64,000 bases of DNA, taken from the NCBI GenBank assembly GCA_964035015.1, contig CAXIUP010000099.1, forward strand, positions 22,501 through 86,500. Direction: 5' to 3'. This document shows, piece after piece, positions 26,411 to 63,564 of the stretch. Below the pieces are notes generated by a model that was given only the letters and a program-made list of their open reading frames with translations, was not told where the DNA came from and searched no databases. Source of the DNA: Corallium rubrum. Taxonomy: Eukaryota > Cnidaria > Anthozoa > Scleralcyonacea > Coralliidae. Positions within the stretch are counted from its first letter, which is position 1. Every line of letters begins with the position of its first letter. The position numbers and the translations under genes are program-made.

Positions 26411-26540
26411 TTTATGTCTTTTTCAATGCTCTGAAAACTGTCAATGGTGACCTACCCCCTTTGTTCCCGTAGTTGATCCCCCTATACTGTATACTTATTA
26501 TGACCAGTTCCTTACTGTGCACGTGATACTGTTTCTGTGT

Positions 26541-27686: not shown

Positions 27687-27802
27687 GCCATGCCCGCCTA
27701 CCGCCCGCGCCGGAACTCCCTAATACCGCCAGCTACGCAGGCTACAACGTTCATATCATTGATATCAACAAGAAGAAAGTGGTTTTATTTGTCAATATAT
27801 AA

Positions 27803-32122: not shown

Positions 32123-32224
32123 GTGACTACCGCTGACCTGTCAGCGGTAGCCATAATGTCGGCGTGTTGCTTGCTTGCGCGAGTGTCTTGAACCGCACTT
32201 ACGTCATACTCGTGCAGCCATCGC

Positions 32225-44336: not shown

Positions 44337-44828
44337 CCCGAGCCGGGCGAGGGTGCTAATCTCAACGTGCGTGGAGTCCACTTTACACGCGAGATAAAAA
44401 GCTGAAAGCAATTCTGAAACCTGCTTATATATCTATTTATAAAATAAGGTGTCCTCTACGCACGCTCTGATTGGCTGGACTCCGTGCATTTATAAGAGAA
44501 CATGAATCATGAATGACGTAAAATGGCGTAGAATGGCGTCAGCTGGCCGGAAAAGCCCGCAAAATTCCAAAACTACCTCACATTTAGCTTAGTTTTGCTT
44601 CTTCTTATTTTATAAAAAAAAATAAAACATACCGCTCCTGTGCATATGTACTCTTATAAAGGCACGTTTGACGTCATTTGAACACGAAAGAAGTGTAAAG
44701 GCACTCGGGTTTAAATTTACGTCAGCAAATTATAATCCCCAAGCCTGGGTGAGGTTGCTAATCTCAACACGCGTGGAGTTCACTTACACGCGAAATTACA
44801 CGCAAGTGGGAAAGAAATTCTGCGAGGT

Positions 44829-44830
<2 letters not shown>
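44337..44830. repeat. Spacer with a ~65-bp direct repeat
   Basis: GCTAATCTCAACGTGCGTGGAG at about 44355 recurs as GCTAATCTCAACACGCGTGGAG near 44755, each followed by a TTACACGCGA-type sequence. The rest is unannotated. Confidence 0.6.

Positions 44831-44922
<92 letters not shown>
44831..44922. repeat. (TA)n microsatellite at the PLE boundary
   Basis: About 45 TA units running directly into the end of the inverted PLE copy (TATACGTGTGGG), so it is the likely insertion site. Confidence 0.96.
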
Positions 44923-44924
<2 letters not shown>

Positions 44925-45008
44925 GTGTGGGTTTTTGGTCTACGAAACGCAAAGAGTGCTCGATAACATATAGTTAGAGCAAATATAGATTTTCGCTTAC
45001 CTCAAAAG

Positions 45009-45051
45009 TCTGCTACAGGCTGTTTAATCTAAAAAAGAATCTTCAGGCAGA
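45009..45051 (-). ncRNA. Hammerhead ribozyme remnant (G12 changed)
   Basis: The same fold as at 48995-49037, but the conserved GAAA after stem II reads TAAA (G12 to U on the RNA), so it is predicted inactive. Confidence 0.6.
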
Positions 45052-45130
45052 TGACAATTTTCGAAAACAGGGGGTGCTTATATCCTTCTTGTCGGAACGT
45101 GGGAGTGTGGGGGCGAAACAATACATGCAT

Positions 45131-46446
45131 TCATGGCTTTGTTGCGCTGTTTGCGCGGAATTTGTGTCGATGACGACATTGACTGATAATTTCTGCTCTT
45201 TTGTTGAGTAAACAATTCTTGTTTTTATCTTTCAAAATATAAAATTTTTCTTCTAAACATAAATTACATCGTTTTGAACCTCCCGTGTACGAAATAGAAT
45301 GTTTTAAAATTTGCCAATTGATACTAAAATCCTTATTGTTTTCTTTCAATGCCCAAATATATTTCGAAAGTTCGGTGTCGTTTGCATGCTTTTTATGCTG
45401 AAAAGATTTAGTGTGGTTGGCCAATCGCTCTTTGAATGTGCTTGAAGTCATGCCAATGTAATTCTTGATCGTGTTTGTGTTGTTTACTGTGACTGTTGCT
45501 TTGTATACTATGTCCCTAGTCATGCATTGTTTTCTAAGTGGACAATTCGTGTTTTTCTTACAATTGCAACTGCTAGTGTCCTTATCCTGTGGCATGTTAT
45601 TCCTAGATATGTGTGCATTGTGTTTAGTGATTATTGACTTAACATTGTTCATGCAGCTGTAACTTACTTTGACTGTGTTTCTGTTAAAAATCTTATGGAG
45701 CTTGTGGTGTGGTGGGAAGTGCTTGTCAATTAGGTTTAGGAAATTACGTCCTATGTTTGTGCTTACACTCTTGCTAAAAGGTGGGTTGAACCAAGTGATG
45801 TTGCGTTGCCTATTCCTGCGTGGTTGCTGTGCTGTGTGTTGAGTGTAGCTAAGATCATGATCAAAGTTGCTGTGCCTAAGTGCGTTCTGATATATGGGTG
45901 CAGATTCCTGAAAAACTTGTTCATCTGACGAGAGAAGTGCAATGCGCTTGTTGATTGATGCAGGTAACTGTCTTGTGATGCTTGGTGGGTGGTTAGAGTG
46001 CTTATTTATGTAAAGCGGATCGTCATTGGGCTTCCTATAGGGCCTATAATTTCCATTGTTAAGGTCGAAAGTTACATCTAAAAAGTTTACTATGCGTAAA
46101 TTTGATTCGGCGGTAATTTTTAGGTCAAACTGCTCGAAAATTTTGTGGAGTTCTTTCCTTGTTTTGTCTGCTAAACGTGCTGATTTACTTTTTATAATAG
46201 CTAAACCGTCATCTCTATATAGGCCAATACTTTCTTTGCCAAATTTCTTACTTAGGTGATTTAAAATGAAAAGGCCTACTAACTCACAAACTTCCGCGCC
46301 GTCGAAACAACCCATGGTAACGTCAAACAAACTATTGCTATCTTTTTTTATCCATGAAATTCCGGTATTGAAAAGGAGAGATTTTCTAGCGTGTTTTATT
46401 ATTGAAATATTGTTTTCAGTTATAGTAGCCAAATTCGAAGCCCAAC
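45131..46446 (-). pseudogene. 5'-truncated PLE RT-GIY-YIG ORF (inverted copy)
   Basis: Open for 433 codons but begins downstream of RT motif A, so the palm is incomplete. Motif B (MGCFDGAEVCEL), motif C (YRDDG), the Cys cluster and GIY-YIG remain intact. Without an ATG and half its RT, it cannot make an active enzyme. Confidence 0.9.
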
Positions 46447-46519
46447 AAAAGAGCAGAAATTATCAGTCAATGTCGTCATCGACACAAATTTCGCGCAAAC
46501 AGCGCAACAAAGCCATGAA

Positions 46520-46791
46520 TGCATGTATTGTTTCGCCCCCACACTCCCACGTTCCGACAAGAAGGATATAAGCACCCCCTGTTTTCGAAAATTGTCATCT
46601 GCCCGAAGATTCTTTTTTAGATGAAACAGCCTGTAGCAGACTTTTGAGGTAAGCGAAAATCTATATTTGCTCTAACTATATGTTATCGAGCACTCTTTGC
46701 GTTTCGTAGACCAAAAACCCACACGTATATTCGCACCCGTATATCGGTTGTGCACTCTTGTTTACGTTATTCATTTCTATTTAACTTCAAA
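46520..46791 (+). promoter_or_regulatory. PLE inter-ORF segment (pseudo-LTR): ribozyme, candidate intron, 5' leader
   Basis: Representative of eight such segments. In order: a C-rich stretch (CGCCCCCACACTCCCAC), the hammerhead fold, the donor-like GAG|GTAAGC, a branch-like CTAAC, the acceptor-like TTTCGTAG (a 61-nt intron), the terminal CACACGTATA, then a leader to the ATG. Promoter activity is expected from PLE biology but no core promoter motif is evident. Confidence 0.55.
46598..46640 (+). ncRNA. Hammerhead ribozyme copy, core mutated (U4C)
   Basis: Stem strands TCTGC and GCAGA are intact, but the CUGANGA box reads CCGAAGA. Predicted inactive or weak. The same change occurs at 63371-63413. 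Confidence 0.6.
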
Positions 46792-48915
46792 ATGCGGCAA
46801 TTTCGATTTGACTATTCACTAAAGAATATCCCAATACCATCACAGGACGCTTATTTGAAGAATTTGAATGAAAAAGTGGAAAGTGTAATAAAACGTATGA
46901 GATGGAAAGCCAATTTCTTTCTTAAAAACAAACAGAGAGAAAACCAAAACAACCCTTTCGGCCTTGCGTCCAACAAAACACCTCCTTCTATCCCGGAAAT
47001 AAAACCTTTCGAAGACGACCTTATAAAACTCATCGAAAATATACAATTTCGGCCATATACGAACCAGTTTCAGAAATGTTTGGCTACCGATTTAAAGAAA
47101 ATTAATTCATCTCCCAACATTTTCATTTTTGCAGACAAAACTAGGAACATTTATGAAACCCCGCTCGACACATACAACAAACTCCTACATGACAACATCA
47201 CAAAAACATACAAGCACGGATCCGAGGACACTATAGATGAAATTGATTCAGAACTAAAAGAAATTTCGAACAGTTTAGGAATCGGCGACAAAATTGAAAA
47301 AATGAAAAAACGCGAAGCATTTATATCTTTAAAAGACCACAAAGAAAATTTCGAAAACAATCCAAAATGCCGATTAATTAACCCCGCTAAAAGCGAATCC
47401 GGAAAACTAAGTAAGGTGATTTTGGACAAAATTAATTCTAATTTGAGACAAAAACTGAATTTAAACCAATGGAGAAATACAAAACAAGTAATTGAGTGGT
47501 TTGGCAATATAAAAGATAAGGACAGACATAGTTTTATTTCGTTTGACATTGTCGATTTCTATCCGTCTATTTCTGAAAAACTATTGGACCAAGCATTATC
47601 TTGGGCTTCGAATTTGGCTACTATAACTGAAAACAATATTTCAATAATAAAACACGCTAGAAAATCTCTCCTTTTCAATACCGGAATTTCATGGATAAAA
47701 AAAGATAGCAATAGTTTGTTTGACGTTACCATGGGTTGTTTCGACGGCGCGGAAGTTTGTGAGTTAGTAGGCCTTTTCATTTTAAATCACCTAAGTAAGA
47801 AATTTGGCAAAGAAAGTATTGGCCTATATAGAGATGACGGTTTAGCTATTATAAAAAGTAAATCAGCACGTTTAGCAGACAAAACAAGGAAAGAACTCCA
47901 CAAAATTTTCGAGCAGTTTGACCTAAAAATTACCGCCGAATCAAATTTACGCATAGTAAACTTTTTAGATGTAACTTTCGACCTTAACAATGGAAATTAT
48001 AGGCCCTATAGGAAGCCCAATGACGATCCGCTTTACATAAATAAGCACTCTAACCACCCACCAAGCATCACAAGACAGTTACCTGCATCAATCAACAAGC
48101 GCATTGCACTTCTCTCGTCAGATGAACAAGTTTTTCAGGAATCTGCACCCATATATCAGAACGCACTTAGGCACAGCAACTTTGATCATGATCTTAGCTA
48201 CACTCAACACACAGCACAGCAACCACGCAGGAATAGGCAACGCAACATCACTTGGTTCAACCCACCTTTTAGCAAGAGTGTAAGCACAAACATAGGACGT
48301 AATTTCCTAAACCTAATTGACAAGCACTTCCCACCACACCACAAGCTCCATAAGATTTTTAACAGAAACACAGTCAAAGTAAGTTACAGCTGCATGAACA
48401 ATTTTAAGTCAATAATCACTAAACACAATGCACACATATCTAGGAATAACATGCCACAGGATAAGGACACTAGCAGTTGCAATTGTAAGAAAAACACGAA
48501 TTGTCCACTTAGAAAACAATGCATGACTAGGGACATAGTATACAAAGCAACAGTCACAGTAAACAACACAAACACGATCAAGAATTACATTGGCATGACT
48601 TCAAGCACATTCAAAGAGCGATTGGCCAACCACACTAAGTCTTTTCAGCATAAAAAGCATGCAAACGACACCGAACTTTCGAAATATATTTGGGCATTGA
48701 AAGAAAACAGTAAGGATTTTAGTATCAATTGGCAAATTTTAAAACATTCTATTTCGTACACGGGAGGTTCAAAACGATGTAATTTATGTTTAGAAGAAAA
48801 ATTTTATATTTTGAAAGATAAAAACAAGAATTGTTTACTCAACAAAAGAGCAGAAATTATCAGTCAATGTCGTCATCGACACAAATTCCGCGCAAACAGC
48901 GCAACAAAGCCATGA
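46792..48915 (+). CDS. Penelope-like reverse transcriptase with GIY-YIG endonuclease, copy 1 (707 aa)
   Basis: The protein copies element RNA into DNA at a nick made by its own endonuclease. The N-terminal part has the DK motif (FADKT, D115) found near the start of PLE RTs. The RT palm has motif A SFDIVDFYPSI (D252), motif B MGCFDGAEVCEL (314-325) and motif C YRDDG (346-350), then a thumb-like region. C-terminal Cys residues (C563, C565, C571, C577) precede a GIY-YIG domain: VYKA (Y584), YIG (599-601), FKERL and LCLEEKF. The ATG at 46792 is chosen; the frame is open 14 codons further to a GTG, which a eukaryotic gene would not normally use. Copy-specific residues are Asn in KNLNEKVES, Phe in MNNFKS and Ser in KENSKDF. 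Two of these are shared with copy 7. The clade within PLEs is not assigned. Confidence 0.93.
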   Translation: MRQFRFDYSLKNIPIPSQDAYLKNLNEKVESVIKRMRWKANFFLKNKQRENQNNPFGLASNKTPPSIPEIKPFEDDLIKLIENIQFRPYTNQFQKCLATDLKKINSSPNIFIFADKTRNIYETPLDTYNKLLHDNITKTYKHGSEDTIDEIDSELKEISNSLGIGDKIEKMKKREAFISLKDHKENFENNPKCRLINPAKSESGKLSKVILDKINSNLRQKLNLNQWRNTKQVIEWFGNIKDKDRHSFISFDIVDFYPSISEKLLDQALSWASNLATITENNISIIKHARKSLLFNTGISWIKKDSNSLFDVTMGCFDGAEVCELVGLFILNHLSKKFGKESIGLYRDDGLAIIKSKSARLADKTRKELHKIFEQFDLKITAESNLRIVNFLDVTFDLNNGNYRPYRKPNDDPLYINKHSNHPPSITRQLPASINKRIALLSSDEQVFQESAPIYQNALRHSNFDHDLSYTQHTAQQPRRNRQRNITWFNPPFSKSVSTNIGRNFLNLIDKHFPPHHKLHKIFNRNTVKVSYSCMNNFKSIITKHNAHISRNNMPQDKDTSSCNCKKNTNCPLRKQCMTRDIVYKATVTVNNTNTIKNYIGMTSSTFKERLANHTKSFQHKKHANDTELSKYIWALKENSKDFSINWQILKHSISYTGGSKRCNLCLEEKFYILKDKNKNCLLNKRAEIISQCRHRHKFRANSATKP

Positions 48916-48994
48916 ATGCATGTATTGTTTCGCCCCCACACTCCCACGTTCCGACAAGAAGGATATAAGCACCCCCTGTTTTCGAAAATTGTCA

Positions 48995-49037
48995 TCTGCC
49001 TGAAGATTCTTTTTTAGATGAAACAGCCTGTAGCAGA
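48995..49037 (+). ncRNA. Minimal type I hammerhead ribozyme (intact core)
   Basis: Stem I is TCTGC (48995-48999) pairing with GCAGA (49033-49037). Core box CTGAAGA is 49000-49006. Stem II is TTCT/AGAT with a T5 loop; its first pair is U-U, which is unusual. GAAA is 49020-49023. Stem III is ACA/TGT around GCC, a nearly palindromic ACAGCCUGU that could pair between two copies. Cleavage is predicted after A49032 (UGUA). This matches the short-stem-III hammerheads described from PLEs. Confidence 0.72.
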
Positions 49038-49045
49038 CTTTTGAG

Positions 49046-49106
49046 GTAAGCGAAAATCTATATTTGCTCTAACTATATGTTATCGAGCACTCTTTGCGTT
49101 TCGTAG
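49046..49106 (+). other. Candidate 61-nt intron in PLE leader
   Basis: GAG|GTAAGC at 49046, CTAAC about 35 nt before the end, and TTTCGTAG ending at 49106. It is conserved in all segments at the equivalent place. Penelope of Drosophila virilis also has a short intron in this region (established knowledge); splicing here is inferred. Confidence 0.5.
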
Positions 49107-49187
49107 ACCAAAACCCACACGTATATTCGCACCCGTATATCGGTTGTGCACTCTTGTTTACGTTATTCATTTCTATTTAACTTCAAA

Positions 49188-51311
49188 ATGCGGCAATTTC
49201 GATTTGACTATTCACTAAAGAATATCCCAATACCATCACAGGACGCTTATTTGAAGAATTTGATTGAAAAAGTGGAAAGTGTAATAAAACGTATGAGATG
49301 GAAAGCCAATTTCTTTCTTAAAAACAAACAGAGAGAAAACCAAAACAACCCTTTCGGCCTTGCGTCCAACAAAACACCTCCTTCTATCCCGGAAATAAAA
49401 CCTTTCGAAGACGACCTTATAAAACTCATCGAAAATATACAATTTCGGCCATATACGAACCAGTTTCAGAAATGTTTGGCTACCGATTTAAAGAAAATTA
49501 ATTCATCTCCCAACATTTTCATTTTTGCAGACAAAACTAGGAACATTTATGAAACCCCGCTCGACACATACAACAAACTCCTACATGACAACATCACAAA
49601 AACATACAAGCACGGATCCGAGGACACTATAGATGAAATTGATTCAGAACTAAAAGAAATTTCGAACAGTTTAGGAATCGGCGACAAAATTGAAAAAATG
49701 AAAAAACGCGAAGCATTTATATCTTTAAAAGACCACAAAGAAAATTTCGAAAACAATCCAAAATGCCGATTAATTAACCCCGCTAAAAGCGAATCCGGAA
49801 AACTAAGTAAGGTGATTTTGGACAAAATTAATTCTAATTTGAGACAAAAACTGAATTTAAACCAATGGAGAAATACAAAACAAGTAATTGAGTGGTTTGG
49901 CAATATAAAAGATAAGGACAGACATAGTTTTATTTCGTTTGACATTGTCGATTTCTATCCGTCTATTTCTGAAAAACTATTGGACCAAGCATTATCTTGG
50001 GCTTCGAATTTGGCTACTATAACTGAAAACAATATTTCAATAATAAAACACGCTAGAAAATCTCTCCTTTTCAATACCGGAATTTCATGGATAAAAAAAG
50101 ATAGCAATAGTTTGTTTGACGTTACCATGGGTTGTTTCGACGGCGCGGAAGTTTGTGAGTTAGTAGGCCTTTTCATTTTAAATCACCTAAGTAAGAAATT
50201 TGGCAAAGAAAGTATTGGCCTATATAGAGATGACGGTTTAGCTATTATAAAAAGTAAATCAGCACGTTTAGCAGACAAAACAAGGAAAGAACTCCACAAA
50301 ATTTTCGAGCAGTTTGACCTAAAAATTACCGCCGAATCAAATTTACGCATAGTAAACTTTTTAGATGTAACTTTCGACCTTAACAATGGAAATTATAGGC
50401 CCTATAGGAAGCCCAATGACGATCCGCTTTACATAAATAAGCACTCTAACCACCCACCAAGCATCACAAGACAGTTACCTGCATCAATCAACAAGCGCAT
50501 TGCACTTCTCTCGTCAGATGAACAAGTTTTTCAGGAATCTGCACCCATATATCAGAACGCACTTAGGCACAGCAACTTTGATCATGATCTTAGCTACACT
50601 CAACACACAGCACAGCAACCACGCAGGAATAGGCAACGCAACATCACTTGGTTCAACCCACCTTTTAGCAAGAGTGTAAGCACAAACATAGGACGTAATT
50701 TCCTAAACCTAATTGACAAGCACTTCCCACCACACCACAAGCTCCATAAGATTTTTAACAGAAACACAGTCAAAGTAAGTTACAGCTGCATGAACAATGT
50801 TAAGTCAATAATCACTAAACACAATGCACACATATCTAGGAATAACATGCCACAGGATAAGGACACTAGCAGTTGCAATTGTAAGAAAAACACGAATTGT
50901 CCACTTAGAAAACAATGCATGACTAGGGACATAGTATACAAAGCAACAGTCACAGTAAACAACACAAACACGATCAAGAATTACATTGGCATGACTTCAA
51001 CCACATTCAAAGAGCGATTGGCCAACCACACTAAATCTTTTCAGCATAAAAAGCATGCAAACGACACCGAACTTTCGAAATATATTTGGGCATTGAAAGA
51101 AAACAATAAGGATTTTAGTATCAATTGGCAAATTTTAAAACATTCTATTTCGTACACGGGAGGTTCAAAACGATGTAATTTATGTTTAGAAGAAAAATTT
51201 TATATTTTGAAAGATAAAAACAAGAATTGTTTACTCAACAAAAGAGCAGAAATTATCAGTCAATGTCGTCATCGACACAAATTCCGCGCAAACAGCGCAA
51301 CAAAGCCATGA
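49188..51311 (+). CDS. PLE RT-GIY-YIG, copy 2 (707 aa, intact)
   Basis: All RT and GIY-YIG motifs as in copy 1. It differs by Ile in KNLIEKVES, Thr in GMTSTTF, Asn in KENNKDF and Val in MNNVKS. It is flanked on both sides by hammerhead segments, the upstream one (48995) with an intact core. Confidence 0.93.
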   Translation: MRQFRFDYSLKNIPIPSQDAYLKNLIEKVESVIKRMRWKANFFLKNKQRENQNNPFGLASNKTPPSIPEIKPFEDDLIKLIENIQFRPYTNQFQKCLATDLKKINSSPNIFIFADKTRNIYETPLDTYNKLLHDNITKTYKHGSEDTIDEIDSELKEISNSLGIGDKIEKMKKREAFISLKDHKENFENNPKCRLINPAKSESGKLSKVILDKINSNLRQKLNLNQWRNTKQVIEWFGNIKDKDRHSFISFDIVDFYPSISEKLLDQALSWASNLATITENNISIIKHARKSLLFNTGISWIKKDSNSLFDVTMGCFDGAEVCELVGLFILNHLSKKFGKESIGLYRDDGLAIIKSKSARLADKTRKELHKIFEQFDLKITAESNLRIVNFLDVTFDLNNGNYRPYRKPNDDPLYINKHSNHPPSITRQLPASINKRIALLSSDEQVFQESAPIYQNALRHSNFDHDLSYTQHTAQQPRRNRQRNITWFNPPFSKSVSTNIGRNFLNLIDKHFPPHHKLHKIFNRNTVKVSYSCMNNVKSIITKHNAHISRNNMPQDKDTSSCNCKKNTNCPLRKQCMTRDIVYKATVTVNNTNTIKNYIGMTSTTFKERLANHTKSFQHKKHANDTELSKYIWALKENNKDFSINWQILKHSISYTGGSKRCNLCLEEKFYILKDKNKNCLLNKRAEIISQCRHRHKFRANSATKP

Positions 51312-51390
51312 ATGCATGTATTGTTTCGCCCCCACACTCCCACGTTCCGACAAGAAGGATATAAGCACCCCCTGTTTTCGAAAATTGTCA

Positions 51391-51433
51391 TCTGCCTGAA
51401 GATTCTTTTTTAGATGAAACAGCCTGTAGCAGA
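51391..51433 (+). ncRNA. Hammerhead ribozyme (intact core)
   Basis: Identical in all paired and core positions to 48995-49037, exactly 2396 bp downstream. Confidence 0.7.
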
Positions 51434-51583
51434 CTTTTGAGGTAAGCGAAAATCTATATTTGCTCTAACTATATGTTATCGAGCACTCTTTGCGTTTCGT
51501 AGACCAAAACCCACACGTATATTCGCACCCGTATATCGGTTGTGCACTCTTGTTTACGTTATTCATTTCTATTTAACTTCAAA

Positions 51584-53707
51584 ATGCGGCAATTTCGATT
51601 TGACTATTCACTAAAGAATATCCCAATACCATCACAGGACGCTTATTTGAAGAATTTGATTGAAAAAGTGGAAAGTGTAATAAAACGTATGAGATGGAAA
51701 GCCAATTTCTTTCTTAAAAACAAACAGAGAGAAAATCAAAACAACCCTTTCGGCCTTGCGTCCAACAAAACACCTCCTTCTATCCCGGAAATAAAACCTT
51801 TCGAAGACGACCTTATAAAACTCATCGAAAATATACAATTTCGGCCATATACGAACCAGTTTCAGAAATGTTTGGCTACCGATTTAAAGAAAATTAATTC
51901 ATCTCCCAACATTTTCATTTTTGCAGACAAAACTAGGAACATTTATGAAACCCCGCTCGACACATACAACAAACTCCTACATGACAACATCACAAAAACA
52001 TATAAGCATGGATCCGAGGACACTATAGATGAAATTGATTCAGAACTAAAAGAAATTTCGAACAGTTTAGGAATCGGCGACAAAATTGAAAAAATGAAAA
52101 AACGCGAAGCATTTATATCTTTAAAAGACCACAAAGAAAATTTCGAAAACAATCCAAAATGCCGATTAATTAACCCCGCTAAAAGCGAATCCGGAAAACT
52201 AAGTAAGGTGATTTTGGACAAAATTAATTCTAATTTGAGACAAAAACTGAATTTAAACCAATGGAGAAATACAAAACAAGTAATTGAGTGGTTTGGCAAT
52301 ATAAAAGATAAGGACAGACATAGTTTTATTTCGTTTGACATTGTCGATTTCTATCCGTCTATTTCTGAAAAACTATTGGACCAAGCATTATCTTGGGCTT
52401 CGAATTTGGCTACTATAACTGAAAACAATATTTCAATAATAAAACACGCTAGAAAATCTCTCCTTTTCAATACCGGAATTTCATGGATAAAAAAAGATAG
52501 CAATAGTTTGTTTGACGTTACCATGGGTTGTTTCGACGGCGCGGAAGTTTGTGAGTTAGTAGGCCTTTTCATTTTAAATCACCTAAGTAAGAAATTTGGC
52601 AAAGAAAGTATTGGCCTATATAGAGATGACGGTTTGGCTATTATAAAAAGTAAATCAGCACGTTTAGCAGACAAAACAAGGAAAGAACTCCACAAAATTT
52701 TCGAGCAGTTTGACCTAAAAATTACCGCCGAATCAAATTTACGCATAGTAAACTTTTTAGATGTAACTTTCGACCTTAACAATGGAAATTATAGGCCCTA
52801 TAGGAAGCCCAATGACGATCCGCTTTACATAAATAAGCACTCTAACCACCCACCAAGCATCACAAGACAGTTACCTGCATCAATCAACAAGCGCATTGCA
52901 CTTCTCTCATCAGATGAACAAGTTTTTCAGGAATCTGCACCCATATATCAGAACGCACTTAGGCACAGCAACTTTGATCATGATCTTAGCTACACTCAAC
53001 ACACAGCACAGCAACCACGCAGGAATAGGCAACGCAACATCACTTGGTTCAACCCACCTTTTAGCAAGAGTGTAAGCACAAACATAGGACGTAATTTCCT
53101 AAACCTAATTGACAAGCACTTCCCACCACACCACAAGCTCCATAAGATTTTTAACAGAAACACAGTCAAAGTAAGTTACAGCTGCATGAACAATGTTAAG
53201 TCAATAATCACTAAACACAATGCACACATATCTAGGAATAACATGCCACAGGATAAGGACACTAGCAGTTGCAATTGTAGGAAAAACACGAATTGTCCAC
53301 TTAGAAAACAATGCATGACTAGGGACATAGTATACAAAGCAACAGTCACAGTAAACAACACAAACACGATCAAAAATTACATTGGCATGACTTCAACCAC
53401 ATTCAAAGAGCGATTGGCCAACCACACTAAGTCTTTTCAGCATAAAAAGCATGCAAACGACACCGAACTTTCGAAATATATTTGGGCATTGAAAGAAAAC
53501 AATAAGGATTTTAGTATTAATTGGCAAATTTTAAAACATTCTATTTCGTACACGGGAGGTTCAAAACGATGTAATTTATGTTTAGAAGAAAAATTTCATA
53601 TTTTGAAAGATAAAAACAAGAATTGTTTACTCAACAAAAGAGCAGAAATTATCAGTCAATGTCGTCATCGACACAAATTCCGCGCAAACAGCGCAACAAA
53701 GCCATGA
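51584..53707 (+). CDS. PLE RT-GIY-YIG, copy 3 (707 aa, intact)
   Basis: Intact frame. Copy-specific changes are CNCRKN in the Cys cluster (Arg for Lys) and EEKFHIL (His for Tyr) near the C-terminus; catalytic motifs are unchanged. Confidence 0.93.
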   Translation: MRQFRFDYSLKNIPIPSQDAYLKNLIEKVESVIKRMRWKANFFLKNKQRENQNNPFGLASNKTPPSIPEIKPFEDDLIKLIENIQFRPYTNQFQKCLATDLKKINSSPNIFIFADKTRNIYETPLDTYNKLLHDNITKTYKHGSEDTIDEIDSELKEISNSLGIGDKIEKMKKREAFISLKDHKENFENNPKCRLINPAKSESGKLSKVILDKINSNLRQKLNLNQWRNTKQVIEWFGNIKDKDRHSFISFDIVDFYPSISEKLLDQALSWASNLATITENNISIIKHARKSLLFNTGISWIKKDSNSLFDVTMGCFDGAEVCELVGLFILNHLSKKFGKESIGLYRDDGLAIIKSKSARLADKTRKELHKIFEQFDLKITAESNLRIVNFLDVTFDLNNGNYRPYRKPNDDPLYINKHSNHPPSITRQLPASINKRIALLSSDEQVFQESAPIYQNALRHSNFDHDLSYTQHTAQQPRRNRQRNITWFNPPFSKSVSTNIGRNFLNLIDKHFPPHHKLHKIFNRNTVKVSYSCMNNVKSIITKHNAHISRNNMPQDKDTSSCNCRKNTNCPLRKQCMTRDIVYKATVTVNNTNTIKNYIGMTSTTFKERLANHTKSFQHKKHANDTELSKYIWALKENNKDFSINWQILKHSISYTGGSKRCNLCLEEKFHILKDKNKNCLLNKRAEIISQCRHRHKFRANSATKP

Positions 53708-53785
53708 ATGCATGTATTGTTTCGCCCCCACACTCCCACGTTCCGTCAGGAAGGATATAAGCACCCCTGTTTTCGAAAATTGTCA

Positions 53786-53828
53786 TCTGCCTGAAGATTC
53801 TTTTTTAGATGAAACAGCCTGTTGCAGA
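53786..53828 (+). ncRNA. Hammerhead ribozyme (intact core, U at cleavage site)
   Basis: As at 48995 except that the residue 5' of the cut is T instead of A (UGUU). The rule at that position is any base but G, so activity should be possible. Just upstream, the segment differs by TCAGG for ACAAG and loses one C. Confidence 0.68.
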
Positions 53829-53979
53829 CTTTTGAGGTAAGCGAAAATCTATATTTGCTCTAACTATATGTTATCGAGCACTCTTTGCGTTTCGTAGAAC
53901 CAAAACCCACACGTATATTCGCACCCGTATATCGGTTGTGCACTCTTGTTTACGTTATTCATTTCTATTTAACTTCAAA

Positions 53980-56103
53980 ATGCGGCAATTTCGATTTGAC
54001 TATTCACTAAAGAATATCCCAATACCATCACAGGACGCTTATTTGAAGAATTTGATTGAAAAAGTGGAAAGTGTAATAAAACGTATGAGATGGAAAGCCA
54101 ATTTCTTTCTTAAAAACAAACAGAGAGAAAATCAAAACAACCCTTTCGGCCTTGCGTCCAACAACACACCTCCTTCTATTCCGGAAATAAAACCTTTCGA
54201 AGACGACCTTATAAAACTCATCGAAAATATACAATTTCGGCCATATACGAACCAGTTTCAGAAATGTTTGGCTACCGATTTAAAGAAAATTAATTCATCT
54301 CCCAACATTTTCATTTTTGCAGACAAAACTAGGAACATTTATGAAACCCCGCTCGACACATACAACAAGCTCCTACATGACAACATCACAAAAACATATA
54401 AGCATGGATCCGAGGACACTATAGATGAAATTGATTCAGAACTAAAAGAAATTTCGAACAGTTTAGGAATCGGCGACAAAATTGAAAAAATGAAAAAACG
54501 CGAAGCATTTATATCTTTAAAAGACCACAAAGAAAATTTCGAAAACAATCCAAAATGCCGATTAATTAACCCCGCTAAAAGCGAATCCGGAAAACTAAGT
54601 AAGGTGATTTTGGACAAAATTAATTCTAATTTGAGACAAAAACTGAATTTAAACCAATGGAGAAATACAAAACAAGTAATTGAGTGGTTTGGCAATATAA
54701 AAGATAAGGACAGACATAGTTTTATTTCGTTTGACATTGTCGATTTCTATCCGTCTATTTCTGAAAAATTATTGGACCAAGCATTATCTTGGGCTTCGAA
54801 TTTGACTACTATAACTGAAAACAATATTTCAATAATAAAACACGCTAGAAAATCTCTCCTTTTCAATACCGGAATTTCATGGATAAAAAAAGATAGCAAT
54901 ACTTTGTTTGACGTTACCATGGGTTGTTTCGACGGCGCGGAAGTTTGTGAGTTAGTAGGCCTTTTCATTTTAAATCACCTAAGTAAGAAATTTGGCAAAG
55001 AAAGTATTGGCCTATATAGAGATGACGGTTTAGCTATTATAAAAAGTAAATCAGCACGTTTAGCAGACAAAACAAGGAAAGAACTCCACAAAATTTTCGA
55101 GCAGTTTGACCTAAAAATTACCGCCGAATCAAATTTACGCATAGTAAACTTTTTAGATGTAACTTTCGACCTTAACAATGGAAATTATAGGCCCTATAGG
55201 AAGCCCAATGACGATCCGCTTTACATAAATAAGCACTCTAACCACCCACCAAGCATCACAAGACAGTTACCTGCATCAATCAACAAGCGCATTGCACTTC
55301 TCTCATCAGATGAACAAGTTTTTCAGGAATCTGCACCCATATATCAGAACGCACTTAGGCACAGCAACTTTGATCATGATCTTAGCTACACTCAACACAC
55401 AGCACAGCAACCACGCAGGAATAGGCAACGCAACATCACTTGGTTCAACCCACCTTTTAGCAAGAGTGTAAGCACAAACATAGGACGTAATTTCCTAAAC
55501 CTAATTGACAAGCACTTCCCACCACACCACAAGCTCCATAAGATTTTTAACAGAAACACAGTCAAAGTAAGTTACAGCTGCATGAACAATGTTAAGTCAA
55601 TAATCACTAAACACAATGCACACATATCTAGGAATAACATGCCACAGGATAAGGACACTAGCAGTTGCAATTGTAAGAAAAACACGAATTGTCCACTTAG
55701 AAAACAATGCATGACTAGGGACATAGTATACAAAGCAACAGTCACAGTAAACAACACAAACACGATCAAGAATTACATTGGCATGACTTCAACCACATTC
55801 AAAGAGCGATTGGCCAACCACACTAAATCTTTTCAGCATAAAAAGCATGCAAACGACACCGAACTTTCGAAATACATTTGGGCATTGAAAGAAAACAATA
55901 AGGATTTTAGTATTAATTGGCAAATTTTAAAACATTCTATTTCGTACACGGGAGGTTCAAAACGATGTAATTTATGTTTAGAAGAAAAATTTTATATTTT
56001 GAAAGATAAAAACAAGAATTGTTTACTCAACAAAAGAGCAGAAATTATCAGTCAATGTCGTCATCGACACAAATTCCGCGCAAACAGCGCAACAAAGCCA
56101 TGA
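53980..56103 (+). CDS. PLE RT-GIY-YIG, copy 4 (707 aa, intact)
   Basis: Intact frame. Marker changes: Asn in SNNTPPS, Thr in ASNLTTI (shared with copy 5) and Thr in DSNTLFD just before motif B. RT and endonuclease motifs are conserved. Confidence 0.93.
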   Translation: MRQFRFDYSLKNIPIPSQDAYLKNLIEKVESVIKRMRWKANFFLKNKQRENQNNPFGLASNNTPPSIPEIKPFEDDLIKLIENIQFRPYTNQFQKCLATDLKKINSSPNIFIFADKTRNIYETPLDTYNKLLHDNITKTYKHGSEDTIDEIDSELKEISNSLGIGDKIEKMKKREAFISLKDHKENFENNPKCRLINPAKSESGKLSKVILDKINSNLRQKLNLNQWRNTKQVIEWFGNIKDKDRHSFISFDIVDFYPSISEKLLDQALSWASNLTTITENNISIIKHARKSLLFNTGISWIKKDSNTLFDVTMGCFDGAEVCELVGLFILNHLSKKFGKESIGLYRDDGLAIIKSKSARLADKTRKELHKIFEQFDLKITAESNLRIVNFLDVTFDLNNGNYRPYRKPNDDPLYINKHSNHPPSITRQLPASINKRIALLSSDEQVFQESAPIYQNALRHSNFDHDLSYTQHTAQQPRRNRQRNITWFNPPFSKSVSTNIGRNFLNLIDKHFPPHHKLHKIFNRNTVKVSYSCMNNVKSIITKHNAHISRNNMPQDKDTSSCNCKKNTNCPLRKQCMTRDIVYKATVTVNNTNTIKNYIGMTSTTFKERLANHTKSFQHKKHANDTELSKYIWALKENNKDFSINWQILKHSISYTGGSKRCNLCLEEKFYILKDKNKNCLLNKRAEIISQCRHRHKFRANSATKP

Positions 56104-56181
56104 ATGCATGTATTGTTTCGCCCCCACACTCCCACGTTCCGACAAGAAGGATATAAGCACCCCTGTTTTCGAAAATTGTCA

Positions 56182-56224
56182 TCTGCCTGAAGATTCTTTT
56201 TTAGATGAAACAGCCTGTTGCAGA
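56182..56224 (+). ncRNA. Hammerhead ribozyme (intact core, U at cleavage site)
   Basis: Same UGUU cleavage triplet variant as 53786-53828, linking copies 4 and 5 as a recent pair. Confidence 0.68.
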
Positions 56225-56375
56225 CTTTTGAGGTAAGCGAAAATCTATATTTGCTCTAACTATATGTTATCGAGCACTCTTTGCGTTTCGTAGACCAAAA
56301 ACCCACACGTATATTCGCACCCGTATATCGGTTGTGCACTCTTGTTTACGTTATTCATTTCTATTTAACTTCAAA

Positions 56376-58498
56376 ATGCGGCAATTTCGATTTGACTATT
56401 CACTAAAGAATATCCCAATACCATCACAGGACGCTTATTTGAAGAATTTGATTGAAAAAGTGGAAAGTGTAATAAAACGTATGAGATGGAAAGCCAATTT
56501 CTTTCTTAAAAACAAACAGAGAGAAAACCAAAACAACCCTTTCGGCCTTGCGTCCAACAAAACACCTCCTTCTATCCCGGAAATAAAACCTTTCGAAGAC
56601 GACCTTATAAAACTCATCGAAAATATACAATTTCGGCCATATACGAACCAGTTTCAGAAATGTTTGGCTACCGATTTAAAGAAAATTAATTCATCTCCCA
56701 ACATTTTCATTTTTGCAGACAAAACTAGGAACATTTATGAAACCCCGCTCGACACATACAACAAACTCCTACATGACAACATCACAAAAACATATAAGCA
56801 TGGATCCGAGGACACTATAGATGAAATTGATTCGAACTAAAAGAAATTTCGAACAGTTTAGGAATCGGCGACAAAATTGAAAAAATGAAAAAACGCGAAG
56901 CATTTATATCTTTAAAAGACCACAAAGAAAATTTCGAAAACAATCCAAAATGCCGATTAATTAACCCCGCTAAAAGCGAATCCGGAAAACTAAGTAAGGT
57001 GATTTTGGACAAAATTAATTCTAATTTGAGACAAAAACTGAATTTAAACCAATGGAGAAATACAAAACAAGTAATTGAGTGGTTTGGCAATATAAAAGAT
57101 AAGGACAGACATAGTTTTATTTCGTTTGACATTGTCGATTTCTATCCGTCTATTTCTGAAAAATTATTGGACCAAGCATTATCTTGGGCTTCGAATTTGA
57201 CTACTATAACTGAAAACAATATTTCAATAATAAAACACGCTAGAAAATCTCTCCTTTTCAATACCGGAATTTCATGGATAAAAAAAGATAGCAATAGTTT
57301 GTTTGACGTTACCATGGGTTGTTTCGACGGCGCGGAAGTTTGTGAGTTAGTAGGCCTTTTCATTTTAAATCACCTAAGTAAGAAATTTGGCAAAGAAAGT
57401 ATTGGCCTATATAGAGATGACGGTTTAGCTATTATAAAAAGTAAATCAGCACGTTTAGCAGACAAAACAAGGAAAGAACTCCACAAAATTTTCGAGCAGT
57501 TTGACCTAAAAATTACCGCCGAATCAAATTTACGCATAGTAAACTTTTTAGATGTAACTTTCGACCTTAACAATGGAAATTATAGGCCCTATAGGAAGCC
57601 CAATGACGATCCGCTTTACATAAATAAGCACTCTAACCACCCACCAAGCATCACAAGACAGTTACCTGCATCAATCAACAAGCGCATTGCACTTCTCTCG
57701 TCAGATGAACAAGTTTTTCAGGAATCTGCACCCATATATCAGAACGCACTTAGGCACAGCAACTTTGATCATGATCTTAGCTACACTCAACACACAGCAC
57801 AGCAACCACGCAGGAATAGGCAACGCAACATCACTTGGTTCAACCCACCTTTTAGCAAGAGTGTAAGCACAAACATAGGACGTAATTTCCTAAACCTAAT
57901 TGACAAGCACTTCCCACCACACCACAAGCTCCATAAGATTTTTAACAGAAACACAGTCAAAGTAAGTTACAGCTGCATGAACAATGTTAAGTCAATAATC
58001 ACTAAACACAATGCACACATATCTAGGAATAACATGCCACAGGATAAGGACACTAGCAGTTGCAATTGTAAGAAAAACACGAATTGTCCACTTAGAAAAC
58101 AATGCATGACTAGGGACATAGTATACAAAGCAACAGTCACAGTAAACAACACAAACACGATCAAGAATTACATTGGCATGACTTCAACCACATTCAAAGA
58201 GCGATTGGCCAACCACACTAAATCTTTTCAGCATAAAAAGCATGCAAACGACACCGAACTTTCGAAATATATTTGGGCATTGAAAGAAAACAATAAGGAT
58301 TTTAGTATTAATTGGCAAATTTTAAAACATTCTATTTCGTACACGGGAGGTTCAAAACGATGTAATTTATGTTTAGAAGAAAAATTTTATATTTTGAAAG
58401 ATAAAAACAAGAATTGTTTACTCAACAAAAGAGCAGAAATTATCAGTCAATGTCGTCATCGACACAAATTCCGCGCAAACAGCGCAACAAAGCCATGA
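56376..58498 (+). pseudogene. PLE RT-GIY-YIG, copy 5, single-base frameshift
   Basis: One A is missing at about 56834 (GATTCGAACT where other copies have GATTCAGAACT), which stops translation after about 154 residues. The frame resumes from Met at 56885 and is open to the usual stop at 58498. All RT motifs lie in the downstream part, so only the N-terminal region is disconnected. It shares ASNLTTI with copy 4. Confidence 0.9.
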
Positions 58499-58576
58499 AT
58501 GCATGTATTGTTTCGCCCCCACACTCCCACGTTCCGACAAGAAGGATATAAGCACCCCTGTTTTCGAAAATTGTCA

Positions 58577-58620
58577 TCTGCCTGAAGATTCTTTTTTTAG
58601 ATGAAACAGCCTGTAGCAGA
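58577..58620 (+). ncRNA. Hammerhead ribozyme (intact core, longer loop II)
   Basis: One extra T lies in the stem II loop (T6 instead of T5); all core and stem positions are unchanged. Confidence 0.7.
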
Positions 58621-58771
58621 CTTTTGAGGTAAGCGAAAATCTATATTTGCTCTAACTATATGTTATCGAGCACTCTTTGCGTTTCGTAGACCAAAAACCC
58701 ACACGTATATTCGCACCCGTATATCGGTTGTGCACTCTTGTTTACGTTATTCATTTCTATTTAACTTCAAA

Positions 58772-60895
58772 ATGCGGCAATTTCGATTTGACTATTCACT
58801 AAAGAATATCCCAATACCATCACAGGACGCTTATTTGAAGAATTTGATTGAAAAAGTGGAAAGTGTAATAAAACGTATGAGATGGAAAGCCAATTTCTTT
58901 CTTAAAAACAAACAGAGAGAAAACCAAAACAACCCTTTCGGCCTTGCGTCCAACAAAACACCTCCTTCTATCCCGGAAATAAAACCTTTCGAAGACGACC
59001 TTATAAAACTCATCGAAAATATACAATTTCGGCCATATACGAACCAGTTTCAGAAATGTTTGGCTACCGATTTAAAGAAAATTAATTCATCTCCCAACAT
59101 TTTCATTTTTGCAGACAAAACTAGGAACATTTATGAAACCCCGCTCGACACATACAACAAGCTCCTACATGACAACATCACAAAAACATACAAGCATGGA
59201 TCCGAGGACACTATAGATGAAATTGATTCGGAACTAAAAGAAATTTCGAACAGTTTAGGAATCGGCGACAAAATTGAAAAAATGAAAAAACGCGAAGCAT
59301 TTATATCTTTAAAAGACCACAAAGAAAATTTCGAAAACAATCCAAAATGCCGATTAATTAACCCCGCTAAAAGCGAATCCGGAAAACTAAGTAAGGTGAT
59401 TTTGGACAAAATTAATTCTAATTTGAGACAAAAACTGAATTTAAACCAATGGAGAAATACAAAACAAGTAATTGAGTGGTTTGGCAATATAAAAGATAAG
59501 GACAGACATAGTTTTATTTCGTTTGACATTGTCGATTTCTATCCGTCTATTTCTGAAAAACTATTGGACCAAGCATTATCTTGGGCTTCGAATTTGGCTA
59601 CTATAACTGAAAACAATATTTCAATAATAAAACACGCTAGAAAATCTCTCCTTTTCAATACCGGAATTTCATGGATAAAAAAAGATAGCAATAGTTTGTT
59701 TGACGTTACCATGGGTTGTTTCGACGGCGCGGAAGTTTGTGAGTTAGTAGGCCTTTTCATTTTAAATCACCTAAGTAAGAAATTTGGCAAAGAAAGTATT
59801 GGCCTATATAGAGATGACGGTTTAGCTATTATAAAAAGTAAATCAGCACGTTTAGCAGACAAAACAAGGAAAGAACTCCACAAAATTTTCGAGCAGTTTG
59901 ACCTAAAAATTACCGCCGAATCAAATTTACGCATAGTAAACTTTTTAGATGTAACTTTCGACCTTAACAATGGAAATTATAGGCCCTATAGGAAGCCCAA
60001 TGACGATCCGCTTTACATAAATAAGCACTCTAACCACCCACCAAGCATCACAAGACAGTTACCTGCATCAATCAACAAGCGCATTGCACTTCTCTCGTCA
60101 GATGAACAAGTTTTTCAGGAATCTGCACCCATATATCAGAACGCACTTAGGCACAGCAACTTTGATCATGATCTTAGCTACACTCAACACACAGCACAGC
60201 AACCACGCAGGAATAGGCAACGCAACATCACTTGGTTCAACCCACCTTTTAGCAAGAGTGTAAGCACAAACATAGGACGTAATTTCCTAAACCTAATTGA
60301 CAAGCACTTCCCACCACACCACAAGCTCCATAAGATTTTTAACAGAAACACAGTCAAAGTAAGTTACAGCTGCATGAACAATGTTAAGTCAATAATCACT
60401 AAACACAATGCACACATATCTAGGAATAACATGCCACAGGATAAGGACACTAGCAGTTGCAATTGTAAGAAAAACACGAATTGTCCACTTAGAAAACAAT
60501 GCATGACTAGGGACATAGTATACAAAGCAACAGTCACAGTAAACAACACAAACACGATCAAGAATTACATTGGCATGACTTCAAGCACATTCAAAGAGCG
60601 ATTGGCCAACCACACTAAATCTTTTCAGCATAAAAAGCATGCAAACGACACCGAACTTTCGAAATATATTTGGGCATTGAAAGAAAACAATAAGGATTTT
60701 AGTATCAATTGGCAAATTTTAAAACATTCTATTTCGTACACGGGAGGTTCAAAACGATGTAATTTATGTTTAGAAGAAAAATTTTATATTTTGAAAGATA
60801 AAAACAAGAATTGTTTACTCAACAAAAGAGCAGAAATTATCAGTCAATGTCGTCATCGACACAAATTCCGCGCAAACAGCGCAACAAAGCCATGA
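58772..60895 (+). CDS. PLE RT-GIY-YIG, copy 6 (707 aa, intact)
   Basis: Intact. Carries Ile in KNLIEKVES but Ser in GMTSSTF, a mix of the copy 2-5 and copy 1/7 markers, which suggests exchange among units. Confidence 0.93.
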   Translation: MRQFRFDYSLKNIPIPSQDAYLKNLIEKVESVIKRMRWKANFFLKNKQRENQNNPFGLASNKTPPSIPEIKPFEDDLIKLIENIQFRPYTNQFQKCLATDLKKINSSPNIFIFADKTRNIYETPLDTYNKLLHDNITKTYKHGSEDTIDEIDSELKEISNSLGIGDKIEKMKKREAFISLKDHKENFENNPKCRLINPAKSESGKLSKVILDKINSNLRQKLNLNQWRNTKQVIEWFGNIKDKDRHSFISFDIVDFYPSISEKLLDQALSWASNLATITENNISIIKHARKSLLFNTGISWIKKDSNSLFDVTMGCFDGAEVCELVGLFILNHLSKKFGKESIGLYRDDGLAIIKSKSARLADKTRKELHKIFEQFDLKITAESNLRIVNFLDVTFDLNNGNYRPYRKPNDDPLYINKHSNHPPSITRQLPASINKRIALLSSDEQVFQESAPIYQNALRHSNFDHDLSYTQHTAQQPRRNRQRNITWFNPPFSKSVSTNIGRNFLNLIDKHFPPHHKLHKIFNRNTVKVSYSCMNNVKSIITKHNAHISRNNMPQDKDTSSCNCKKNTNCPLRKQCMTRDIVYKATVTVNNTNTIKNYIGMTSSTFKERLANHTKSFQHKKHANDTELSKYIWALKENNKDFSINWQILKHSISYTGGSKRCNLCLEEKFYILKDKNKNCLLNKRAEIISQCRHRHKFRANSATKP

Positions 60896-60973
60896 ATGCA
60901 TGTATTGTTTCGCCCCCACACTCCCACGTTCCGACAAGAAGGATATAAGCACCCCTGTTTTCGAAAATTGTCA

Positions 60974-61016
60974 TCTGCCTGAAGATTCTTTTTTAGATGA
61001 AACAGCCTGTAGCAGA
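60974..61016 (+). ncRNA. Hammerhead ribozyme (intact core)
   Basis: Same core and stems as 48995-49037, with the UGUA cleavage triplet. Confidence 0.7.
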
Positions 61017-61167
61017 CTTTTGAGGTAAGCGAAAATCTATATTTGCTCTAACTATATGTTATCGAGCACTCTTTGCGTTTCGTAGAACAAAAACCCACAC
61101 GTATATTCGCACCCGTATATCGGTTGTGCACTCTTGTTTACGTTATTCATTTCTATTTAACTTCAAA

Positions 61168-63291
61168 ATGCGGCAATTTCGATTTGACTATTCACTAAAG
61201 AATATCCCAATACCATCACAGGACGCTTATTTGAAGAATTTGAATGAAAAAGTGGAAAGTGTAATAAAACGTATGAGATGGAAAGCCAATTTCTTTCTTA
61301 AAAACAAACAGAGAGAAAACCAAAACAACCCTTTCGGCCTTGCGTCCAACAAAACACCTCCTTCTATCCCGGAAATAAAACCTTTCGAAGACGACCTTAT
61401 AAAACTCATCGAAAATATACAATTTCGGCCATATACGAACCAGTTTCAGAAATGTTTGGCTACCGATTTAAAGAAAATTAATTCATCTCCCAACATTTTC
61501 ATTTTTGCAGACAAAACTAGGAACATTTATGAAACCCCGCTCGACACATACAACAAACTCCTACATGACAACATCACAAAAACATACAAGCACGGATCCG
61601 AGGACACTATAGATGAAATTGATTCAGAACTAAAAGAAATTTCGAACAGTTTAGGAATCGGCGACAAAATTGAAAAAATGAAAAAACGCGAAGCATTTAT
61701 ATCTTTAAAAGACCACAAAGAAAATTTCGAAAACAATCCAAAATGCCGATTAATTAACCCCGCTAAAAGCGAATCCGGAAAACTAAGTAAGGTGATTTTG
61801 GACAAAATTAATTCTAATTTGAGACAAAAACTGAATTTAAACCAATGGAGAAATACAAAACAAGTAATTGAGTGGTTTGGCAATATAAAAGATAAGGACA
61901 GACATAGTTTTATTTCGTTTGACATTGTCGATTTCTATCCGTCTATTTCTGAAAAACTATTGGACCAAGCATTATCTTGGGCTTCGAATTTGGCTACTAT
62001 AACTGAAAACAATATTTCAATAATAAAACACGCTAGAAAATCTCTCCTTTTCAATACCGGAATTTCATGGATAAAAAAAGATAGCAATAGTTTGTTTGAC
62101 GTTACCATGGGTTGTTTCGACGGCGCGGAAGTTTGTGAGTTAGTAGGCCTTTTCATTTTAAATCACCTAAGTAAGAAATTTGGCAAAGAAAGTATTGGCC
62201 TATATAGAGATGACGGTTTAGCTATTATAAAAAGTAAATCAGCACGTTTAGCAGACAAAACAAGGAAAGAACTCCACAAAATTTTCGAGCAGTTTGACCT
62301 AAAAATTACCGCCGAATCAAATTTACGCATAGTAAACTTTTTAGATGTAACTTTCGACCTTAACAATGGAAATTATAGGCCCTATAGGAAGCCCAATGAC
62401 GATCCGCTTTACATAAATAAGCACTCTAACCACCCACCAAGCATCACAAGACAGTTACCTGCATCAATCAACAAGCGCATTGCACTTCTCTCGTCAGATG
62501 AACAAGTTTTTCAGGAATCTGCACCCATATATCAGAACGCACTTAGGCACAGCAACTTTGATCATGATCTTAGCTACACTCAACACACAGCACAGCAACC
62601 ACGCAGGAATAGGCAACGCAACATCACTTGGTTCAACCCACCTTTTAGCAAGAGTGTAAGCACAAACATAGGACGTAATTTCCTAAACCTAATTGACAAG
62701 CACTTCCCACCACACCACAAGCTCCATAAGATTTTTAACAGAAACACAGTCAAAGTAAGTTACAGCTGCATGAACAATGTTAAGTCAATAATCACTAAAC
62801 ACAATGCACACATATCTAGGAATAACATGCCACAGGATAAGGACACTAGCAGTTGCAATTGTAAGAAAAACACGAATTGTCCACTTAGAAAACAATGCAT
62901 GACTAGGGACATAGTATACAAAGCAACAGTCACAGTAAACAACACAAACACGATCAAGAATTACATTGGCATGACTTCAAGCACATTCAAAGAGCGATTG
63001 GCCAACCACACTAAATCTTTTCAGCATAAAAAGCATGCAAACGACACCGAACTTTCGAAATATATTTGGGCATTGAAAGAAAACAGTAAGGATTTTAGTA
63101 TCAATTGGCAAATTTTAAAACATTCTATTTCGTACACGGGAGGTTCAAAACGATGTAATTTATGTTTAGAAGAAAAATTTTATATTTTGAAAGATAAAAA
63201 CAAGAATTGTTTACTCAACAAAAGAGCAGAAATTATCAGTCAATGTCGTCATCGACACAAATTCCGCGCAAACAGCGCAACAAAGCCATGA
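61168..63291 (+). CDS. PLE RT-GIY-YIG, copy 7 (707 aa, intact)
   Basis: Intact. Shares Asn in KNLNEKVES, Ser in GMTSSTF and Ser in KENSKDF with copy 1 at the far end of the array, but has Val in MNNVKS. Confidence 0.93.
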   Translation: MRQFRFDYSLKNIPIPSQDAYLKNLNEKVESVIKRMRWKANFFLKNKQRENQNNPFGLASNKTPPSIPEIKPFEDDLIKLIENIQFRPYTNQFQKCLATDLKKINSSPNIFIFADKTRNIYETPLDTYNKLLHDNITKTYKHGSEDTIDEIDSELKEISNSLGIGDKIEKMKKREAFISLKDHKENFENNPKCRLINPAKSESGKLSKVILDKINSNLRQKLNLNQWRNTKQVIEWFGNIKDKDRHSFISFDIVDFYPSISEKLLDQALSWASNLATITENNISIIKHARKSLLFNTGISWIKKDSNSLFDVTMGCFDGAEVCELVGLFILNHLSKKFGKESIGLYRDDGLAIIKSKSARLADKTRKELHKIFEQFDLKITAESNLRIVNFLDVTFDLNNGNYRPYRKPNDDPLYINKHSNHPPSITRQLPASINKRIALLSSDEQVFQESAPIYQNALRHSNFDHDLSYTQHTAQQPRRNRQRNITWFNPPFSKSVSTNIGRNFLNLIDKHFPPHHKLHKIFNRNTVKVSYSCMNNVKSIITKHNAHISRNNMPQDKDTSSCNCKKNTNCPLRKQCMTRDIVYKATVTVNNTNTIKNYIGMTSSTFKERLANHTKSFQHKKHANDTELSKYIWALKENSKDFSINWQILKHSISYTGGSKRCNLCLEEKFYILKDKNKNCLLNKRAEIISQCRHRHKFRANSATKP

Positions 63292-63370
63292 ATGCATGTA
63301 TTGTTTCGCCCCCACACTCCCACGTTCCGACAAGAAGGATATAAGCACCCCCTGTTTTCGAAAATTGTCA

Positions 63371-63413
63371 TCTGCCCGAAGATTCTTTTTTAGATGAAAC
63401 AGCCTGTAGCAGA
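63371..63413 (+). ncRNA. Hammerhead ribozyme copy, core mutated (U4C)
   Basis: CUGANGA reads CCGAAGA, the same change as at 46598-46640; the stems are intact. Confidence 0.6.
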
Positions 63414-63564
63414 CTTTTGAGGTAAGCGAAAATCTATATTTGCTCTAACTATATGTTATCGAGCACTCTTTGCGTTTCGTAGACCAAAAACCCACACGTA
63501 TATTCGCACCCGTATATCGGTTGTGCACTCTTGTTTACGTTATTCATTTCTATTTAACTTCAAA

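Follow-up and report, generated by a model that had tools for sequence, protein, structure and literature searches.

The window, i.e. the whole stretch of 64,000 nucleotides that was analysed, contains seven complete + strand units of a Penelope-like element (PLE), arranged head-to-tail, together with partial copies (Table 1). The array is still continuing at the window edge at position 64000. Tandem and inverted copies with pseudo-LTRs, a trait of PLEs, are thus present at this locus, and the seven complete units measure 2395-2397 nt from one predicted ribozyme cut to the next. Within positions 1-44800 the unit has two short matches only, of 17 nt (E 0.026) and 28 nt (E 0.09). That part of the window holds large satellite arrays with a 38-bp unit in both orientations (22587-32140), ORFs with P-element-like transposase domains (PF21787, PF12017) at 4617-6059 (-) and 20234-21415 (+), and, at 1-813, mostly simple tandem repeats (GCCTGCCT, TGTT and TTCG).

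Table 1. Coordinates of the PLE array and its hammerhead motifs, leader elements and ORFs.
Feature	Position	Strand	Remarks
Inverted, 5'-truncated PLE copy	44919..46445	-	99.8% identity to unit over 1527 nt
Hammerhead of inverted copy	45009..45051	-	G12 to U; predicted inactive
First + copy, 5'-truncated (first pseudo-LTR start)	46443..46635	+	3-nt overlap with inverted copy
Hammerhead	46598..46640	+	U4 to C; predicted impaired
PLE ORF, unit 1	46750..48915	+	721 codons counted from GTG; ATG start likely, as for unit 2
Hammerhead	48995..49037	+	intact core; predicted cut after 49032
Leader hairpin 1, then ACTCT	49066..49093	+	example; in all 8 + leaders; in minimum-energy fold
Equivalent of inverted-copy 3' end	49116..49126	+	CACACG then TATAT; unit positions 84-94
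Leader hairpin 2, then ACTCT	49129..49154	+	example, 63 nt after hairpin 1; in all 8 + leaders; in minimum-energy fold
PLE ORF, unit 2	49188..51311	+	707 aa from ATG; telomerase-like RT (predicted), Cys-rich linker, C-terminal GIY-YIG-like region
Hammerhead	51391..51433	+	intact core
PLE ORF, unit 3	51542..53707	+	
Hammerhead	53786..53828	+	intact core; H17 (cleavage position) is U, not A
PLE ORF, unit 4	53938..56103	+	
Hammerhead	56182..56224	+	intact core; H17 (cleavage position) is U, not A
PLE ORF, unit 5	56334..58498	+	frameshifted; listed as two ORFs
Hammerhead	58577..58620	+	intact core; loop II with one extra T
PLE ORF, unit 6	58730..60895	+	
Hammerhead	60974..61016	+	intact core
PLE ORF, unit 7	61126..63291	+	
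Hammerhead	63371..63413	+	U4 to C; predicted impaired

Compared in pairs, the complete units differ at 4-21 of 2398 columns. Units 1 and 7 differ at 4 of the 2398 positions, and over 592 nt there is no difference between the partial unit 8 and unit 1. This makes it likely that units have exchanged sequence or that a parental array was copied. The ORF is open in six of the seven units, that of unit 5 being broken by the frameshift. Among the coding differences 12 columns are synonymous and 9 non-synonymous. As this corresponds to a crude dN/dS of 0.18, the element protein has probably been under constraint.

An AlphaFold model of the ORF protein was obtained with a pLDDT of 88.2 and a pTM of 0.85. 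The best PDB match reported by Foldseek is the telomerase TERT 3du5 (E 9.3e-09), and telomerases make up six of the ten top matches, although the TM-scores of the TERT match, 0.35 and 0.40, are low and the model matches viral polymerases and further RTs nearly as well. The model therefore points to a telomerase-like RT, as is required of a PLE. In a 22-row alignment the motifs FDIVDFYPSI and YRDDG are conserved, and so are Y598, G615, R624, H628, E683 and N698 (alignment numbering), which fit a GIY-YIG core; on the basis of what we take to be the GIY-YIG motif residues, the C-terminal region is read as GIY-YIG-like. Between this region and the RT lies a Cys-rich linker (CNC...C...C), of which C577, C579 and C591 are invariant and C585 is nearly invariant in the 22 rows. 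By this linker the element appears to be Neptune-like; a Cys-rich domain between RT and endonuclease is described for the Neptune clade of PLEs in PMC3846280. Pfam matched neither an RT nor a GIY-YIG domain in the ORF, and both were likewise unmatched in three relatives. Sequence searches of the PDB gave weak, unrelated matches only (best E 0.26 and 0.029).

Of 7997 candidates that were scored, 2352 are protein relatives of the unit ORF. Some of the best 120 of the 2352, which were listed, carry precomputed PF26215 or PF28514 labels, and many of these 120 lie on contigs of about 2.3-2.9 kb, near the size of one unit; such contigs are possibly collapsed tandem arrays. No relatives were found in viral contigs, plasmids or phages. 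From 60 pattern matches in genome contigs two PLE loci were obtained, namely L001 in the record 'bacterium isolate Cli_8' (56% protein identity in the best segment) and L002 in a Solemya elarraichensis gill symbiont (47% in the best segment). The presence of PLEs in these bacterial assemblies is probably due to host DNA contaminating the records.

The initial annotation had placed a minimal type I hammerhead ribozyme at nine positions and in every inter-ORF segment of the array. The motif TCTGC-CTGAAGA-TTCTTTTTTAGAT-GAAA-CAGCCTG-T[A/T]-GCAGA was indeed present at all nine, and the eight + copies each occupy one inter-ORF segment. The copy at 45009, however, is on the - strand and belongs to the inverted truncated copy, and not every copy is intact. 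The invariant core is preserved in six of the nine copies, which conform to the type I consensus CUGANGA ... GAAA ... UH, and has one residue changed in the other three. The changes concerned are U4 to C and G12 to U, both of which we presume to impair hammerhead cleavage. Among the + copies seen, the core changes fall in the first and the last (46598 and 63371). By eye, a TATAAG was noted at 48964-48969, 25 nt upstream of the ribozyme; it is a possible core promoter that might start the RNA at or near the ribozyme.

Both relatives carry a hammerhead at the place matching that in the window. In L002 it extends from 1250 to 1293, in the gap that separates an ORF ending at 1129 from the following ORF, and reads CCACAC-CUGACGA-U-CCA-GCAA-UGG-U-GAAA-CGGGCCG-UU-GUGUGG. 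L001 holds a partial hammerhead, CUGACGA-GUGC-GUAA-GCAC-GAAAC at 3762, about 125 nt past the ORF, which is interrupted by the contig end. An alignment of seven rows was assembled from five window variants, L002 and the incomplete L001. In this alignment 70 of 76 cells are paired (92.1%) and both sides have changed in 8 of 12 pairs; these counts represent three independent lineages (two in the case of stems I and III), and the same sequences served to draw the structure. Among 500 shuffles none reached the observed value on four measures and one did so on a fifth, and controls with slid partners gave 0-2 pairs changed on both sides. The type I form with three helices and an open-ended stem I is therefore backed by covariation, which for stems I and III comes from the comparison of the window with L002, since L001 stops before them. 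The segment upstream of the ribozyme showed no similarity above shuffles, either between the window and L002 or L001 (336 and 283 of 500 shuffles as good) or between L002 and L001 (68 of 500). The leaders also have a 14-nt stretch in common; since 53 of 2000 shuffles attained as much, it is weak evidence when taken alone.

The first pair of stem II had been regarded initially as the weakest point of the motif, since it is U.U. The same mismatch is found in L002, G-C stands in its place in L001, and the pair is non-standard in six of the seven rows. Hence, it looks like a shared quirk and is not clearly a defect.

A covariance-model search had been suggested as a check of the hammerhead. Rfam reported no hammerhead family at the gathering score in the whole window, and none at E values up to 10 in 44700-64000 or in 48970-49060. 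The same models also missed the clean hammerhead of L002, and in L001 RF00008 was reached with 18.0 bits, below the gathering score of 48.5 (E 0.078). The failure on the window consequently says little. Since the Rfam models miss L002, they are insensitive to the minimal form, and an Rfam match was not treated as defining. The stronger of the two tests is covariation with L001 and L002, and the putative ribozyme passes it. In addition, we used a relaxed type I descriptor consisting of stem I with at least 5 pairs, CTGANGA, stem II with at least 3 pairs (a mismatched first pair being allowed), GAAA, at least 2 further stem III pairs and TH. On both strands of the window it matches exactly the six intact copies, which as near-identical repeats represent one independent occurrence. 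It also matches L002 but not L001, because the L001 hammerhead is interrupted by the contig end. Run on 300 random sequences of 64 kb, generated by a first-order Markov model of the window, the descriptor matched twice, i.e. 0.0067 times per window. A chance resemblance to a hammerhead, to which the missing Rfam match might seem to point, is extremely improbable in view of this rate and of the same motif with covarying stems at the matching place in relatives. It is probable that the motif represents a true hammerhead of the minimal type I, located in the pseudo-LTR of a canonical PLE in a young tandem array; its cleavage, the dimer route, the RT start and the form of the template are what we infer.

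Activity as a dimer, as suggested from the near-palindromic loop, is plausible judging by the self-complementarity of stem III with its loop, which reads ACAG-C-CUGU in the window and ACGG-G-CCGU in L002. A fourth stem III pair is possible only between two copies, yet it is kept in both of these sequences, which as a sample of two make a small test. Self-pairing of the stem III strand amounts to -9.2 in the window and -17.0 in L002. For the L002 dimer, the minimum-energy fold (-32.6 kcal/mol) contains both stems I and both stems II, a long stem III shared by the two copies and, in addition, a single A14-U17 pair. The minimum of the window dimer is not a double hammerhead, because CUGAAGA pairs with a U run and this competing helix persists. 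The same pairing dominates the window monomer, where the hammerhead has -2.8 versus -7.1 for the minimum; in the L002 monomer the values are -7.2 and -12.7. Compared with shuffles, the folding energies of single motifs are unremarkable (z -0.26 to -1.35 for six sequences).

That the hammerhead is not the preferred monomer fold raises the question of whether the ribozyme has merely been inherited by descent and is now dispensable or inactive in this lineage. The core changes in three of nine copies would agree with such a vestigial state, as would the variation within the motif, which at 3 of 44 columns is higher than in the rest of the unit (27 of 2354 columns; Fisher p 0.017, noticed after the fact). 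However, the stems have been kept by compensatory change relative to an element whose protein is roughly 50% identical, and the core is intact in six of the nine copies. We therefore consider a vestigial ribozyme quite unlikely.

Only one 3' end of the element is visible in the window, that of the inverted copy. It reads CCCACACG, followed by TATA leading into a (TA)46 repeat at 44832-44923. This end corresponds to the unit position 89-94 nt past the ribozyme cut, the exact position within this range being ambiguous with the TA repeat. A linear unit cut at the ribozyme would not carry such an end at its 3' terminus. Thus, the template of the inverted copy ran on across the ribozyme instead of stopping there: it was either uncut, or circular, or its ribozyme was already dead (G12 to U).

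This bears on the proposal that two ribozymes excise an exact-unit RNA which serves as the replication intermediate and whose ends become the ends of the element. The even unit length and the intact hammerheads at six consecutive boundaries, from 48995 to 60974, would be expected from such a linear RNA. However, the visible 3' end is situated past the cut and the first + copy begins about 190 nt upstream of the cut site, so that we regard a linear intermediate of this kind as very unlikely. What survives of the initial claim of an excised exact-unit RNA is that a circularised unit could still act as an intermediate.

A similar spacing is found in PAc, the Poseidon element of the lizard Anolis carolinensis, which like the window element is a tandem PLE with a hammerhead near the ORF start (PMC11167929). 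There, the RT start is located 111-118 nt and the cut 26 nt into the ORF, so that they are 85-92 nt apart (PMC11167929), compared with 89-94 nt between the cut and the element end in the window; the agreement concerns one end here and one paper. By analogy, the 3' end of the inverted copy would mark the RT start. The two elements differ in layout: the ribozyme of PAc overlaps the beginning of its ORF, which also contains the RT start (PMC11167929), whereas in the window both the cut and the 3' end are located in the leader upstream of the ATG at 49188. Ribozyme mutants of PAc do not affect insertion in vitro (PMC11167929), which further weakens the role of an excised RNA and would also fit a dispensable ribozyme.

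The position at which the inverted copy ends adjoins twin hairpins of the form GC[U/A]C...G[A/U]GC-ACU[C/U]U. A search with the pattern GC[N]C...G[N]GC-ACU[C/U]U, requiring a complementary middle pair, matched every one of the eight + leaders twice, namely 34 and 97-98 nt past the cut. The inverted copy has one match, because it ends before the second hairpin. In the L002 leader the hairpins (1335-1419) are found 48 and 111 nt past the cut, so that their spacing is 63 nt, compared with 63-64 nt in the + leaders. No further matches were detected elsewhere in the window and none in L001, the sequence of which holds no such leader. Random sequence yields 0.08 matches per 64 kb, a figure that flatters the hairpins since the pattern was written after seeing the copies. 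Less open to this bias are the equal spacing and a change from U-A to A-U in one of the four hairpins of the window and L002 leaders. All four are part of the minimum folds.

Taken together, we propose the following route. A read-through RNA of at least two units would bring two hammerheads into one molecule, whose self-complementary stem III strands (ACAGCCUGU) may pair into one long helix and form a double hammerhead. This would cut after UGU[A/U], possibly helped by the element protein, and release a unit of about 2396 nt with a 5'-OH at 49033 and the equivalent positions. The cut end would not be the place where RT starts; instead, RT would begin 89-94 nt further downstream, at the base of leader hairpin 2. 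On a linear cut unit this start would be found only near the 5' end, and the unit could not be a full template from there. The template would more likely be an uncut multimer RNA or a ligated circle.

In the latter case, a double-cut unit would be ligated by the host into a circular RNA, and rolling RT from the leader hairpins would generate head-to-tail arrays. With such a circle the exact unit length and the tandem layout can be reconciled with an RT start that does not coincide with the cut, and circular RNAs are known from hammerhead retrozymes (PMC7761336). However, the differences between the units mean that the present array is not one fresh copying round of one circle, and the array is explained equally well by a parental array having been copied or by unequal exchange. 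We consider the circular template possible, if doubtful.

The minimal type I form and dimer activity are already known for PLEs, to which the window array adds a member. Cervera and De la Pena reportedly described the minimal type I hammerheads of Penelope-like elements in 2014, and Lunse, Weinberg and Breaker, to go by the title of their 2017 work, reported dimer cleavage of PLE hammerheads. In two further sources PLE hammerheads are presented as conserved, minimal, in tandem and possibly cleaving as dimers, and their role is described as unknown (PMC7761336, PMC6155905). The window hammerhead shares with them the short stem III, the place in the pseudo-LTR or inter-ORF segment and the tandem arrangement. 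Features that may set it apart are the U.U at the start of stem II, common to L002, and the occurrence of core-changed copies within one array. Retrozymes (type III in plants, type I in animals) resemble the window element in that tandem hammerheads flank the unit and in that a unit-length RNA is predicted as the product, according to PMC7761336. In the same source retrozymes are short and non-coding, whereas the window unit has 2.4 kb and encodes its own RT.

Since the hammerhead itself is a known PLE trait, the twin hairpin and the argument about the template are the parts worth following. We tentatively suggest, while considering it rather unlikely, that cut and RT start form a fixed PLE cassette, in which some 90 nt separate the hammerhead cut from a twin-hairpin RT start downstream of it, from the lizard Poseidon to the lineage in the window. 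If so, cutting would act after cDNA synthesis has started, by freeing or ending the template, or alternatively would provide a circle as the template, from which head-to-tail arrays arise; the ribozyme would then govern the number of units copied. With its near-identical units, in which intact and core-changed ribozymes stand side by side, the array is a natural test. The leader with the twin hairpin is common to one relative and adjoins the place where a copy ends. If the spacing between cut and RT start is general, the job of the ribozyme would become directly testable.
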